Assembly: GCA_016219965.1 (NCBI GenBank)
Contig: JACRJM010000004.1
Location: 248,001-312,000, forward strand
Origin: Candidatus Schekmanbacteria bacterium
GTDB lineage: Bacteria; Schekmanbacteria; GWA2-38-11; J061
DNA length: 64,000 bases
Direction of reading: 5' to 3'
The translations under genes and the position numbers were made by a program. Below, in pieces: positions 16,863 to 19,833 of the stretch (its first letter is position 1; each line of letters begins with the position of its first letter). The notes under the pieces are model-generated. The model saw only the letters and a list, made by a program, of their open reading frames with translations, ran no database searches and was not told the DNA's origin.

Positions 16863-16948
16863 TTATTTTCACCTCCCTTCAAATGTTTAAATGTTTCCTT
16901 TTTCAAGGATTAAAATAGTGTTTCTTTATAAAGTGAAAATAAGGGGAG

Positions 16949-16965
16949 TGTTAATTTTTGGTTAA
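16949..16965 (-). promoter_or_regulatory. Candidate Pho box upstream of the porin-pst operon
   Basis: On the minus strand the sequence reads TTAACCAAAAATTAACA, two TTAACA-like direct repeats with an 11-base period. That is the spacing at which PhoB/PhoP-family regulators bind. It lies about 85 bases before the first gene of the operon, and phoB-phoR are encoded nearby. Only two repeat units are clear. Confidence 0.4.
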
Positions 16966-16971
16966 GAATGA

Positions 16972-17219
16972 AAAGTTTTAGTCTGCGCTGATTCGTGTTG
17001 TATCCGGTGCATTAAGAAGGGCATAACAATCTGCTATCCACTAAACAATCATATTGACTCTAAGTTCAAAGAACTATTTATTATACAAACAGGCACTTAT
17101 AATTTTAGACCCGAAAAAATAAATGAGTTTGCCGCGGCTGTTATAGAATTTTGTGAATTGACTAATGCTCATGAGAAGAAACTGATATCTGAATATGAGA
17201 AGTTAAAAAATAGGTTGCT
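16972..17219 (+). pseudogene. Remnant open frame upstream of the attC site
   Basis: An open frame with protein-like composition (for example FKELFIIQTGTYNFRPEKIN and AHEKKLISEYEKLKNRL) has no ATG, GTG or TTG start. It runs into the attC site and then to a chance stop at the next gene. It looks like the 3' part of an older gene, possibly a former cassette, whose 5' end is lost. I do not recognise the product. Confidence 0.35.
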
Positions 17220-17290
17220 ACCTAACTACAGCTTGGAGCTGTTGCCATCGTTGAGATATGAGCGCATGCAGCTCAAGCTGAGTGTTAGGC
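17220..17290 (+). repeat. Integron-type attC recombination site
   Basis: All four attC boxes are present. R'' is ACCTAAC (17220-17226, fits RYYYAAC). L'' is CAGCTTGGAGCTG (17229-17241). L' is CAGCTCAAGCTG (17269-17280). R' is GTTAGGC (17284-17290, fits GTTRRRY). L'' and L' are complementary except for one unpaired G, the extrahelical base expected in L''. The 71-bp length and 27-base loop are normal for attC. Cleavage would fall between G17284 and T17285. No integrase gene is in the window. Confidence 0.8.
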
Positions 17291-17321
17291 TATACTTTCA
17301 CCTTAAAAGGAGGATCGCAAA

Positions 17322-17912
17322 ATGATCGATACATTTTCACCCGCTGACAGTGTGCTCTTGCTCATCGACCATCAACTGGGGACGATGAAGCTCATCAAGA
17401 ATATCCCCATTGATTTGGTCAAGCGAAACACGCTGGCTCTCGCTAAGACAGCCAAGATACTAAACATTCCCGTCGTCCTCACGAGTTCACAGGAACGGAA
17501 CGTCCAGGGACCATTGTTGCCGGAGCTTGAACATATTCTTCCAGAGGCTTTCGCTGCCAGAATCCAGCGTGCTGGCATTGTTAACGCATGGAATGATCTG
17601 AACTTCAAGAAAGCTGTCGAAGCGACAGGTCGCAGGAATCTCATCATGGCTGGTGTGACCACCGACGTGTGTTTGGTGTTTCCGGCAATCAGTGCCTGCC
17701 GCGAGGGCTACCATGTGCAAGCAGTTATAGATGCTTCAGGGTCGCCTTACGAACTTTCCGAAGATATGTCGCGGCGGCGCATGGAACGCGAGGGAGTGGT
17801 GCTTACTGCGACAAACACGCTCATGGCTGAACTTGCTCAGGACTGGAGTCGGCCAGAAGGCGGCCAGTTGCTTGGCATACTGTTTCAAGAAGTACTTCCG
17901 CCAATCGCCTAA
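17322..17912 (+). CDS. Isochorismatase-family hydrolase carried as an integron cassette
   Basis: 196-aa cysteine hydrolase of the isochorismatase-like fold. Visible are the N-terminal Asp in VLLLIDHQLG, the middle Lys region (RNLIMAG) and the nucleophilic Cys in GVTTDVCLVFPAISACREGY. This group includes YcaC-like enzymes; the substrate cannot be told. It has a strong AAAAGGAGG at 17305-17313. Its stop codon lies inside the next attC R'' box (GCCTAAC), exactly as in gene cassettes. GC content and codon use are clearly higher than in neighbouring genes, which supports lateral transfer. Confidence 0.85.
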   Translation: MIDTFSPADSVLLLIDHQLGTMKLIKNIPIDLVKRNTLALAKTAKILNIPVVLTSSQERNVQGPLLPELEHILPEAFAARIQRAGIVNAWNDLNFKKAVEATGRRNLIMAGVTTDVCLVFPAISACREGYHVQAVIDASGSPYELSEDMSRRRMEREGVVLTATNTLMAELAQDWSRPEGGQLLGILFQEVLPPIA

Positions 17913-17936
17913 CATGGCGCTCAACCGGAGAGCGGT
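17907..17936 (+). repeat. Truncated attC site closing the cassette
   Basis: GCCTAAC (17907-17913, R'') is followed by the L''-like arm TGGCGCTCAACCG and the start of the returning arm CGGTTA. After that the sequence diverges, and no R' box (GTTRRRY) follows. The 3' half of the site therefore appears to be lost, which would immobilise the cassette. Confidence 0.6.
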
Positions 17937-17953
17937 TACAATACGGTTTTATT

Positions 17954-18093
17954 TTTTTAGCGGGATATAGCGCAAGAGAAATAAATGAGATAAGAAAAAT
18001 AGTGATAGGAAATGCAGATTTTTTAGAGGAATTGGTATCCACTGGGAAGAAATCGACGAGGATGTTTCAATAGAATCATTGTTGAAAGGATAG
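17954..18093 (+). pseudogene. Frameshifted DUF2442 C-terminal remnant
   Basis: One frame reads AREINEIRKIVIGNADFLEE. After a two-base shift near 18032 the text continues GIHWEEIDEDVSIESLLKG and a stop. The GIHWxxIDEDxSIxxLL ending is the signature C terminus of DUF2442 proteins, often partners of DUF4160 in toxin-antitoxin-like pairs. The 5' part of the gene is missing, replaced by the half attC site. Confidence 0.6.
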
Positions 18094-18108
18094 TGGCTAG
18101 TAATCAAT

Positions 18109-19833
18109 TCAACAAGGCAGTGTGACAGTAAACTTGCTGCCTTCCCCTGGTGTGCTTTCAATGTCTATCCTGCCATTGTGGAGCATAACGATATGCTTCA
18201 CGATCGAAAGACCAAGCCCGGTGCCTCCGGATTTTTTTGAGCGGGATTTGTCAACAACATAGAACCTTTCAAATACACGGGACAAGTCTTCTTTCGGTAT
18301 TCCGATTCCTGTGTCTGTTACTTTTGCTATGACATTTGAAGCTTCGCAGCGGAGTGTAACTGTCACTTTTCCCTGGTCTGTATATTTTATTGCATTGTCT
18401 ATTAGGTTTATAAATAACTGCTCGAGCTTAAAAGGGTCTCCTCTGACTAATGGAACTTTTTCATCTGCTTCAACTTTCATTTCAATATTCTTTTCTCTTG
18501 CCTTGTGCTCAAGTGCTTTGATGGAGTTCTCTATTATCCCTTTCAGGTTGACTTTTTCAATCGTGAGCCTTGTTCCTTTTTCTTCAAGCTCTGAGAGGAG
18601 AAGAAGGTCATTTACGATATTTACAAGACGGTCGGTGTTTCTTTTTATGATTTCAATATAGTTCCTGTTCTTATCATCAATCTCATCTTCTATGGTTTCT
18701 ACATAACCTTTGATTGCTGTAAGAGGTGTCCGGAGCTCATGGGAGACATTTACTACGAAGTCCTTTTTTACTTTTTCAATATTCTTGAGCTCTGTTATGT
18801 CGTGTAACAGGACTATTATTTCATCTTTAGCTGGGATATATGAGGCACTGCAATGATAAATTCGTGAGCAGATTTCGATTTCTCCTTCCTTGTTAATCCT
18901 ATTCATACGAACATTATCAACAATCTCATTGAAGTCAGGATTCCGCAAACCTTCCCAGAATGATTTTCCTGATATCATTTCATTTCCTGCGATTTGTTTT
19001 GCCTTTTCATTGCAAAGGATTATTGTCCCGCTTTTGTCAATGAGGATTACCCCTGCCTGAAAAGATGATATTATTCCATGTAACTCGTCCTTCTGGGATG
19101 AAAGTTCCCCGAAAAGATTTCGTATTTCTCCTGTCATATAATTGAAATTGTCAGCAAGGTCCCGCATCTCATCTTTGTTGTTTAGAAAAACCCTTACATC
19201 AAAATCGCCTTCTGCAAATTTTTTTGATGCAGCGCTAAGATCCTTTATTGGCCTTGCAAGGTTTCTTGCGAGAAATACAGCACCGATGACTGATATGATA
19301 AGGATAACAGCGGCTATTCCTGCAATGCTTATTTCTAATTTTGTGAGAAGCGGATTGATGTCTTTGAGATGAAGACTTAATCTTACATAGCCTTCAATCT
19401 CATTTCCTTTTTTTAGAGGAAGTGCCAAATAAAGCATTTCCTCGTTAATAGTCGCACTGAAGCGAAGAGAACTGCCGGGATTCCCATTTGATGCCTCGAT
19501 GATCTCGGGACGTGCCTTGTGGTTTTCCATGGTGTGCGGATCTTTTTCTGAATCTGCCACAACAGTGCCGTCACTTAGTATTATTGTTATGCGCGTATTA
19601 AGCTCAGGCCCCGTGGTTTTTATAAGCGCATCAATATCATTATACTTTTTTTCTTCAAGCATCGGGGCTATCGTAACTTTCACAGATAAGGCAAGACGTG
19701 TCAAATCCTGCTCAAGAAGCTGGATGTAATGCGACTTTATCGTGTTGAATGAAAATATCAGGATTAGGGAGCACAACGAAAAAATGATAACAAGATAGCC
19801 GCTTAATATTTTTGTGAATATGGTTCGCTTCAT
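18109..19833 (-). CDS. phoR: Phosphate-regulon sensor kinase PhoR
   Basis: 574 aa. Helix 1 (about residues 8-28), a periplasmic domain, helix 2 (about 167-190), HAMP (PIKDLSAASKKFAEGDFDVRV), a PAS domain, HisKA with VNVSHELRTPLTAIKGYVET, and an HATPase domain with N, G1 (VTDTGIGIP), F (FERFYVVDKSRSKKSGG) and G2 (GTGLGLSIVKHIV) boxes. The ATGA overlap with phoB and the nearby pst operon support PhoR. Unlike short PhoR forms it has a true periplasmic sensor region. Confidence 0.88.
   Translation of the reverse strand: MKRTIFTKILSGYLVIIFSLCSLILIFSFNTIKSHYIQLLEQDLTRLALSVKVTIAPMLEEKKYNDIDALIKTTGPELNTRITIILSDGTVVADSEKDPHTMENHKARPEIIEASNGNPGSSLRFSATINEEMLYLALPLKKGNEIEGYVRLSLHLKDINPLLTKLEISIAGIAAVILIISVIGAVFLARNLARPIKDLSAASKKFAEGDFDVRVFLNNKDEMRDLADNFNYMTGEIRNLFGELSSQKDELHGIISSFQAGVILIDKSGTIILCNEKAKQIAGNEMISGKSFWEGLRNPDFNEIVDNVRMNRINKEGEIEICSRIYHCSASYIPAKDEIIVLLHDITELKNIEKVKKDFVVNVSHELRTPLTAIKGYVETIEDEIDDKNRNYIEIIKRNTDRLVNIVNDLLLLSELEEKGTRLTIEKVNLKGIIENSIKALEHKAREKNIEMKVEADEKVPLVRGDPFKLEQLFINLIDNAIKYTDQGKVTVTLRCEASNVIAKVTDTGIGIPKEDLSRVFERFYVVDKSRSKKSGGTGLGLSIVKHIVMLHNGRIDIESTPGEGSKFTVTLPC

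Follow-up and report, generated by a model that had tools for sequence, protein, structure and literature searches.

CALINs are a described class of loci that have been proposed to be degraded integrons, and cases with a single attC site are acknowledged as possible true positives (PMC9024848). In Treponema phagedenis, remnants of attC sites and cassette genes are found after the loss of intI (PMC3607928). A different way in which a cassette gene could come to lie outside an integron is insertion at an off-site position, which is described by Loot et al. 2024, as that work is cited in PMC12901181 and PMC11023631. The attC sites themselves range in length from 57 to 142 nt (PMC2727003), and isochorismatase is a recorded annotation among cassette genes, with 22 in the ACID database (PMC2674596).

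The locus considered here lies in a 64-kb stretch of a Candidatus Schekmanbacteria contig, which is the whole stretch of DNA that was analysed and is referred to as the window. A preliminary description, made from the letters of the window, had pointed to a lone cassette with an isochorismatase-family gene in the phosphate-regulon block, and had left two origins side by side: an off-site integration or the relic of an array. The locus falls among the CALINs, having an attC site without a neighbouring integron integrase, and lies below the two-attC default of IntegronFinder 2.0 (PMC9024848). It is not a complete or sedentary chromosomal integron, as there is no IntI over the cut-off and one attC site.

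The attC site

The boxes, the predicted fold, a motif search and a covariance model all identify the same site, with the following parts:

17220–17290, plus strand: complete attC site of a lost preceding cassette
17220–17226, plus strand: R'' box, ACCTAAC
17229–17241, plus strand: L'' box, CAGCTTGGAGCTG
17242–17268, plus strand: variable terminal structure
17269–17280, plus strand: L' box, CAGCTCAAGCTG
17284–17290, plus strand: R' box, GTTAGGC

All four boxes named in the preliminary description can thus be read at 17220–17290. The site is 71 nt long, its R'' fits RYYYAAC and its R' fits GTTRRRY, while L'' pairs with L' at 12 positions and holds one additional base, a G on the top strand. A hairpin is predicted for either strand, and none of 200 shuffled versions of the exact 71 nt folded as well. 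In a motif-plus-arm search, for which R'' and R' boxes had to be joined by paired arms with one extra base of any kind, the site was the sole match in the 64 kb; mononucleotide-shuffled copies yielded 3 to 5 matches in 320 kb at similar cut-offs.

A covariance-model search, which the preliminary description had proposed as a check, supports this assignment. The model (R1) was built from 16 attC sites found on class 1 plasmids and in environmental arrays, which were brought to a common register by trimming, with the window site held out; 76.9% of the cells in its alignment are paired, a value that none of 500 shuffles reached. R1 recovers class 1 attC sites outside the training set as well as dense arrays in integron-bearing genomes. 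It scores 17220–17290 at 36.6 bits on the plus strand (E 3.7e-8 for the window, 2.1e-6 for the genome), which is the orientation of the gene, compared to 14.4 bits on the opposite strand. By R1 the site is the sole attC in the 3.58-Mb genome, the next match scoring 13.3 bits. A search of the window at Rfam gathering scores gave no match, and a general repeat search of the window did not pick up the attC arms, as is expected from the bulge. Taken together, the window attC is real. It is located about 265 kb into a 650-kb contig, and a contig end therefore does not explain the missing array.

The bottom strand of an attC site is the recombining strand. The extra base in L'' is a G on the top strand and a C on the bottom strand, so that the extrahelical G of the preliminary description holds for the former and not for the strand that recombines. 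The predicted bottom-strand fold is approximately of the type A-N5-C, the second extrahelical base being C, and not T-N6-G. The latter is the most efficient bottom-strand type, which is a mark of efficiency and not a criterion of membership, and four tested integrases showed little or no excision with a combination like A-N5-C (PMC3053210). The attC of the class 1 cassette cmlA5 and two sites of a Pyrinomonadaceae array (L017, see below) likewise carry a G on top, and this base therefore does not exclude the window site from the attC family. The extrahelical C and the short spacing predict a low recombination efficiency for the window attC.

The isochorismatase gene and its broken attC

Directly after the attC site follows a gene with these elements:

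17306–17313, plus strand: Shine-Dalgarno-like AAAGGAGG
17322–17912, plus strand: isochorismatase-family hydrolase (YcaC-like), 196 aa, intact cassette gene
17907–17913, plus strand: R'' box GCCTAAC of the cassette's own attC, with the stop codon

The ATG is the 32nd base after R', as had been counted before, and purine-rich stretches like AAAGGAGG are also present upstream of the gene in related cassettes. The stop codon TAA (17910–17912) lies inside the only plus-strand GCCTAAC of the window. The earlier placing of the stop in the next R'' box is therefore correct, with the qualification that this is a lone R''. Beyond 17913 a possible L'' and half of an L' can be read by eye to about 17938, and R' is lost; R1 gave about 0 bits both for 17895–18110, scanned for the missing half, and for 16900–17215, scanned for a further attC remnant.

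The gene thus has one R' shortly before its start and, at its end, the R'' of its own attC, as is usual for the gene of an integron cassette. Its own complete attC is missing (R1 about 0 bits), which makes the unit a cassette relic and not a mobile cassette. In a cassette the attC follows its gene, and as the complete attC stands 5' of the gene here, it must come from a previous, lost cassette. The preliminary reading of a cassette with a full attC was accordingly right about a real attC and a cassette gene, while the full attC belongs to a different cassette. A complete attC before the gene and an R'' after its stop together indicate that the fragment comes from two or more successive cassettes and is broken at either end. 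Normal IntI-mediated attC × attC excision should no longer release the isochorismatase gene.

The composition of the gene confirms the reported departure from its neighbours in base and codon use. Its GC content is 0.525 compared to 0.410 ± 0.032 (52.5% versus a mean of 41%) and the highest among the 41 genes of the window, its GC3 is 0.569 compared to 0.398 ± 0.052 and the most extreme, and its codon fit is the lowest of the 41. The gene is foreign. At the protein level it matches Pfam PF00857 (isochorismatase) at 57.5 bits with a gathering score of 27, and the YcaC structure (PDB 1yac) over residues 8–190 with an E of 3e-40; the NCBIfam YcaC equivalog score of 168 bits lies under the 310-bit cut-off. 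The dN/dS between the window gene and its relatives of 90–93% identity is 0.03–0.08. The gene is intact, and its family is by this measure under purifying selection. A consensus scan of the plus strand found no sigma-70-like promoter driving the gene, which is weak evidence for this organism. The gene may still be expressed and work as a YcaC-type hydrolase.

The insert between phoR and the porin-pst operon

The attC site and the gene are part of a larger insert, which is delimited as follows:

16949–16965, minus strand: Pho-box-like direct repeat TTAACC-N5-TTAACA before the porin gene; the same element is in the same place in a genome of the same family, G001 (L135:5162-5178)
16966–18108, no strand: whole insert, about 1.14 kb, from the Pho-box-like element to the phoR 3' end
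17026–17219, plus strand: AT-rich fragment, a start-less reading frame running into the attC
18022–18093, plus strand: frame-broken remnant of the C-terminal part of a DUF2442 gene, which stops about 15 bp short of the phoR end

The repeat at 16949–16965 is presumably a Pho box, which we assume from its resemblance to the consensus. In G001, phoB, phoR, porin, pstS, pstC, pstA and pstB (named from their reading frames) are found in the same order, and the gap between phoR and the porin gene past the Pho-box-like element is 27 bp, compared to 1.14 kb in the window, at about 70% identity. Since G001 shares both the repeat and the phoR 3' end, the edges of the insert lie near 16966 and 18108. These edges are blurred, as they are drawn from one relative at about 70% identity, in which the kinship of the intergenic region stops at GTTAA. 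The insert does split phoR from the porin-pst operon by position, as had been described, but the Pho-box-like element before the porin gene is kept, so that the insertion need not have harmed the porin-pst promoter.

Both the foreign composition and the anatomy of the cassette, compared with this one relative, point to a gain of the insert in the window lineage rather than a loss in G001. The same gene standing in place in all relatives with ordinary composition, which the preliminary description had named as evidence against a cassette, was not seen: the G001 junction is without insert and the composition of the gene is foreign.

The DNA on either side of the cassette is less readily named. 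The stretch 16966–17219 has a GC content of 0.33, and searches of phages, plasmids and 97 other genomes gave no homologue of the fragment that precedes the attC. This fragment is probably debris of the preceding cassette or of other inserted DNA, and the DUF2442 remnant is probably debris of a further cassette or, again, of other inserted DNA. A DUF4160 reading of 17945–18030, suspected by eye, found no support in Pfam.

Relatives of the gene in other phyla

The closest relatives of the protein, at 90–93% identity, are found at four loci:

L014, Methylobacter: attC directly upstream of the gene, with another isochorismatase before it (tandem of two)
L015, Deltaproteobacteria MAG classed as Myxococcota: 93% identical; no attC
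L016, Deltaproteobacteria MAG classed as Myxococcota: three-cassette stretch, with GNAT and AHSA1-type genes before the isochorismatase
L017, Pyrinomonadaceae (Acidobacteriota) MAG: six-attC array, with RibD_C and 3-demethylubiquinone methyltransferase-like among its other genes

The window protein and these four form one group with 100/99 support, which spans Pseudomonadota, Myxococcota and Acidobacteriota. An attC stands directly before the gene in three of the four (L014, L016 and L017), in rows of two to about seven cassettes. More distant relatives are also found among attC sites in cyanobacteria (L027, and more weakly L034). At E <= 1e-30 the gene is absent from G001 and from two genomes of the same order, G002 and G003; the host genome has a 42% paralogue elsewhere. 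Viral contigs hold no copy of the gene, and plasmids nothing above about 70% identity. The attC-linked close relatives across phyla show that the isochorismatase is a cassette gene circulating between phyla, and its probable source is a pool of integron cassettes common to several of them.

In L015 (6001–6800) the isochorismatase lies, without an attC, directly before a molybdopterin-oxidoreductase-like frame (named by eye), and is possibly a cassette gene that has turned into an ordinary chromosomal gene.

In L014, L016 and L017, as in the window, the gene ends in an R'' with no complete attC behind it, and the sequence past R'' is different in each. In none of the four attC-linked cases, which are of unknown sampling, can a further cassette be recognised in the row beyond the isochorismatase.

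Integrase search and attC sites in the order

A search of the whole genome found no IntI over the family cut-off. The XerC/XerD-type and phage-type recombinases that were considered as candidates do not pass the IntI cut-off either, and the XerC/XerD-type proteins score higher on XerC/XerD models. The statement of the preliminary description that no integrase is in sight can thus be extended to the whole genome for a complete intI, but it misses a truncated IntI N-terminus of 70 aa on contig C13 (L009 5563-5889, with the M at L009:5677). This remnant matches TIGR02249 residues 1–51 with an E of 4.5e-9, shares 70% identity over 56 aa with an intact IntI from another genome, and does not match the XerC/XerD loci. 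The lineage must thus have encountered one or more integrons, although the C13 remnant may come from an unrelated one. It adjoins a RelE/ParE-like toxin-antitoxin pair, with a REP-associated transposase-like frame further off (both named by eye).

Within the same order, G002 has one attC site and G003, which is only 70% complete, has six spread over five contigs, and in neither genome does an IntI pass the cut-off:

G002: L171:2038-2102
G003: L167:1961-2018; L168:1995-2057; L169:2007-2090 and 2681-2744; L170:1264-1314; L137:11763-11838

The G003 site on L137 resembles the window attC in 57 of 77 columns, with a score of 36 compared to a shuffled maximum of 13.

A stretch of about 154 bp at L171:1884-2037 is 94% identical to the matching end of L167, and in both it lies directly after the R' of otherwise different attC sites. 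The two belong to two genera of one family, and the far end of the common stretch has a 26-bp piece that is repeated elsewhere on the G003 contig. The stretch may represent an array end that has been conserved, or else a hot spot of insertion.

Origin of the insert

The insert is quite probably what remains of an integron cassette array, a stump caught between phoR and the porin-pst operon once the integrase, the platform and most cassettes had been lost. From left to right it would consist of debris, an intact attC ending the previous cassette, the isochorismatase cassette from the R' half-box to its own R'', a break, and a decayed DUF2442 gene. We infer that the insert was once a longer array and that the lineage lost its intI. 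With its own attC lost, the isochorismatase gene would now be an ordinary resident that has its own ribosome-binding site. Against this reading, one attC is left, so that the array is deduced from how the parts are arranged, no second complete site being present; the flanks 17026–17219 and 18022–18093 are not recognisable as cassette DNA; and two joined cassettes at a non-integron site would give the same order of attC and gene.

That last possibility leads to an unlikely alternative, in which joined cassettes were inserted next to the Pho box by a trans-acting integrase, at a non-classical genomic site (attG), with the ends decaying afterwards. The stop of the kinship with G001 at GTTAA weakly resembles a G^TT crossover, and the isolated attC sites of G003 on separate contigs would fit dispersed insertion. 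A single inserted cassette, however, is expected to carry its full attC behind the gene with no attC in front, which is the opposite of what the window holds; insertion of this kind thus needs at least two joined cassettes and the loss of the second attC, and the genome has no complete integrase to perform it. Of the two origins first proposed, the array relic is accordingly supported and the off-site integration of a single cassette disfavoured.

A broader form of the same idea, which we consider doubtful, is that cassettes in the order were scattered as single chromosomal insertions by a trans-acting integrase and locked by the loss of their own attC, the window gene having been captured beside a Pho-regulated promoter and domesticated. 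If this were true, the lack of a complete attC in four of four attC-linked cases would agree with attC loss having been selected for or having fixed the cassettes.

Transposons are known carriers of cassette arrays, and debris of unknown origin flanks the cassette on both sides, so that another mobile element (transposon or phage) that had picked up an array fragment might be thought to have brought the gene. This is improbable, as no transposase was found in the insert and no repeats around it, and the searches of viral contigs and plasmids described above gave no close match.

A chance palindrome in place of an attC, together with a native or plainly transferred gene, is scarcely credible: the loose motif search does find about one match per 64–107 kb of shuffled sequence and the 93% identical gene of L015 has no attC, but the joint evidence already contradicts it, with a held-out score of 36.6 bits against 13.3 for the next genome match, with placement, orientation, the stop in R'' and the attC-linked relatives all concordant, and with a gene that is foreign in composition and absent at such similarity from G001–G003.

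Comparison with described systems

Read as an array relic, the locus is a small and clear case of the passage from integron cassette to ordinary gene, in which the cassette's own attC is lost and the gene is intact. A cassette gene that is 90–93% identical at the protein level across phyla has been stranded in a chromosome without a complete integrase. This extends the known range of integron relics and leaves the accepted working of integrons unchanged.

The protein belongs to the same family as the YcaC hydrolases (PDB 1yac, 4wgf), with its DHQ-motif Asp and its T-x-V-C-motif Cys aligned, but remains under the YcaC equivalog cut-off (168 of 310 bits). Isochorismatase gene cassettes are known by annotation (PMC2674596) and close relatives stand in the arrays of L014, L016 and L017, whereas no platform surrounds the window cassette, whose own attC is lost. 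Cassettes inserted at attG (Loot et al. 2024) likewise place a cassette gene in the chromosome away from an integron, but in the window the attC is before the gene and not after it; this likeness is drawn from papers citing that work and from general knowledge. The integron relics of Treponema phagedenis are similar in that attC sites and cassette genes outlast intI (PMC3607928), and different in that they form a syntenic cluster in Treponema, compared to the single stump in the window. Finally, with CALINs and with single attC sites without integrase the locus shares an attC and a cassette gene with no integron integrase nearby. It differs from the CALINs in its one attC site, where IntegronFinder 2.0 takes two by default, and in the broken attC of the cassette itself.
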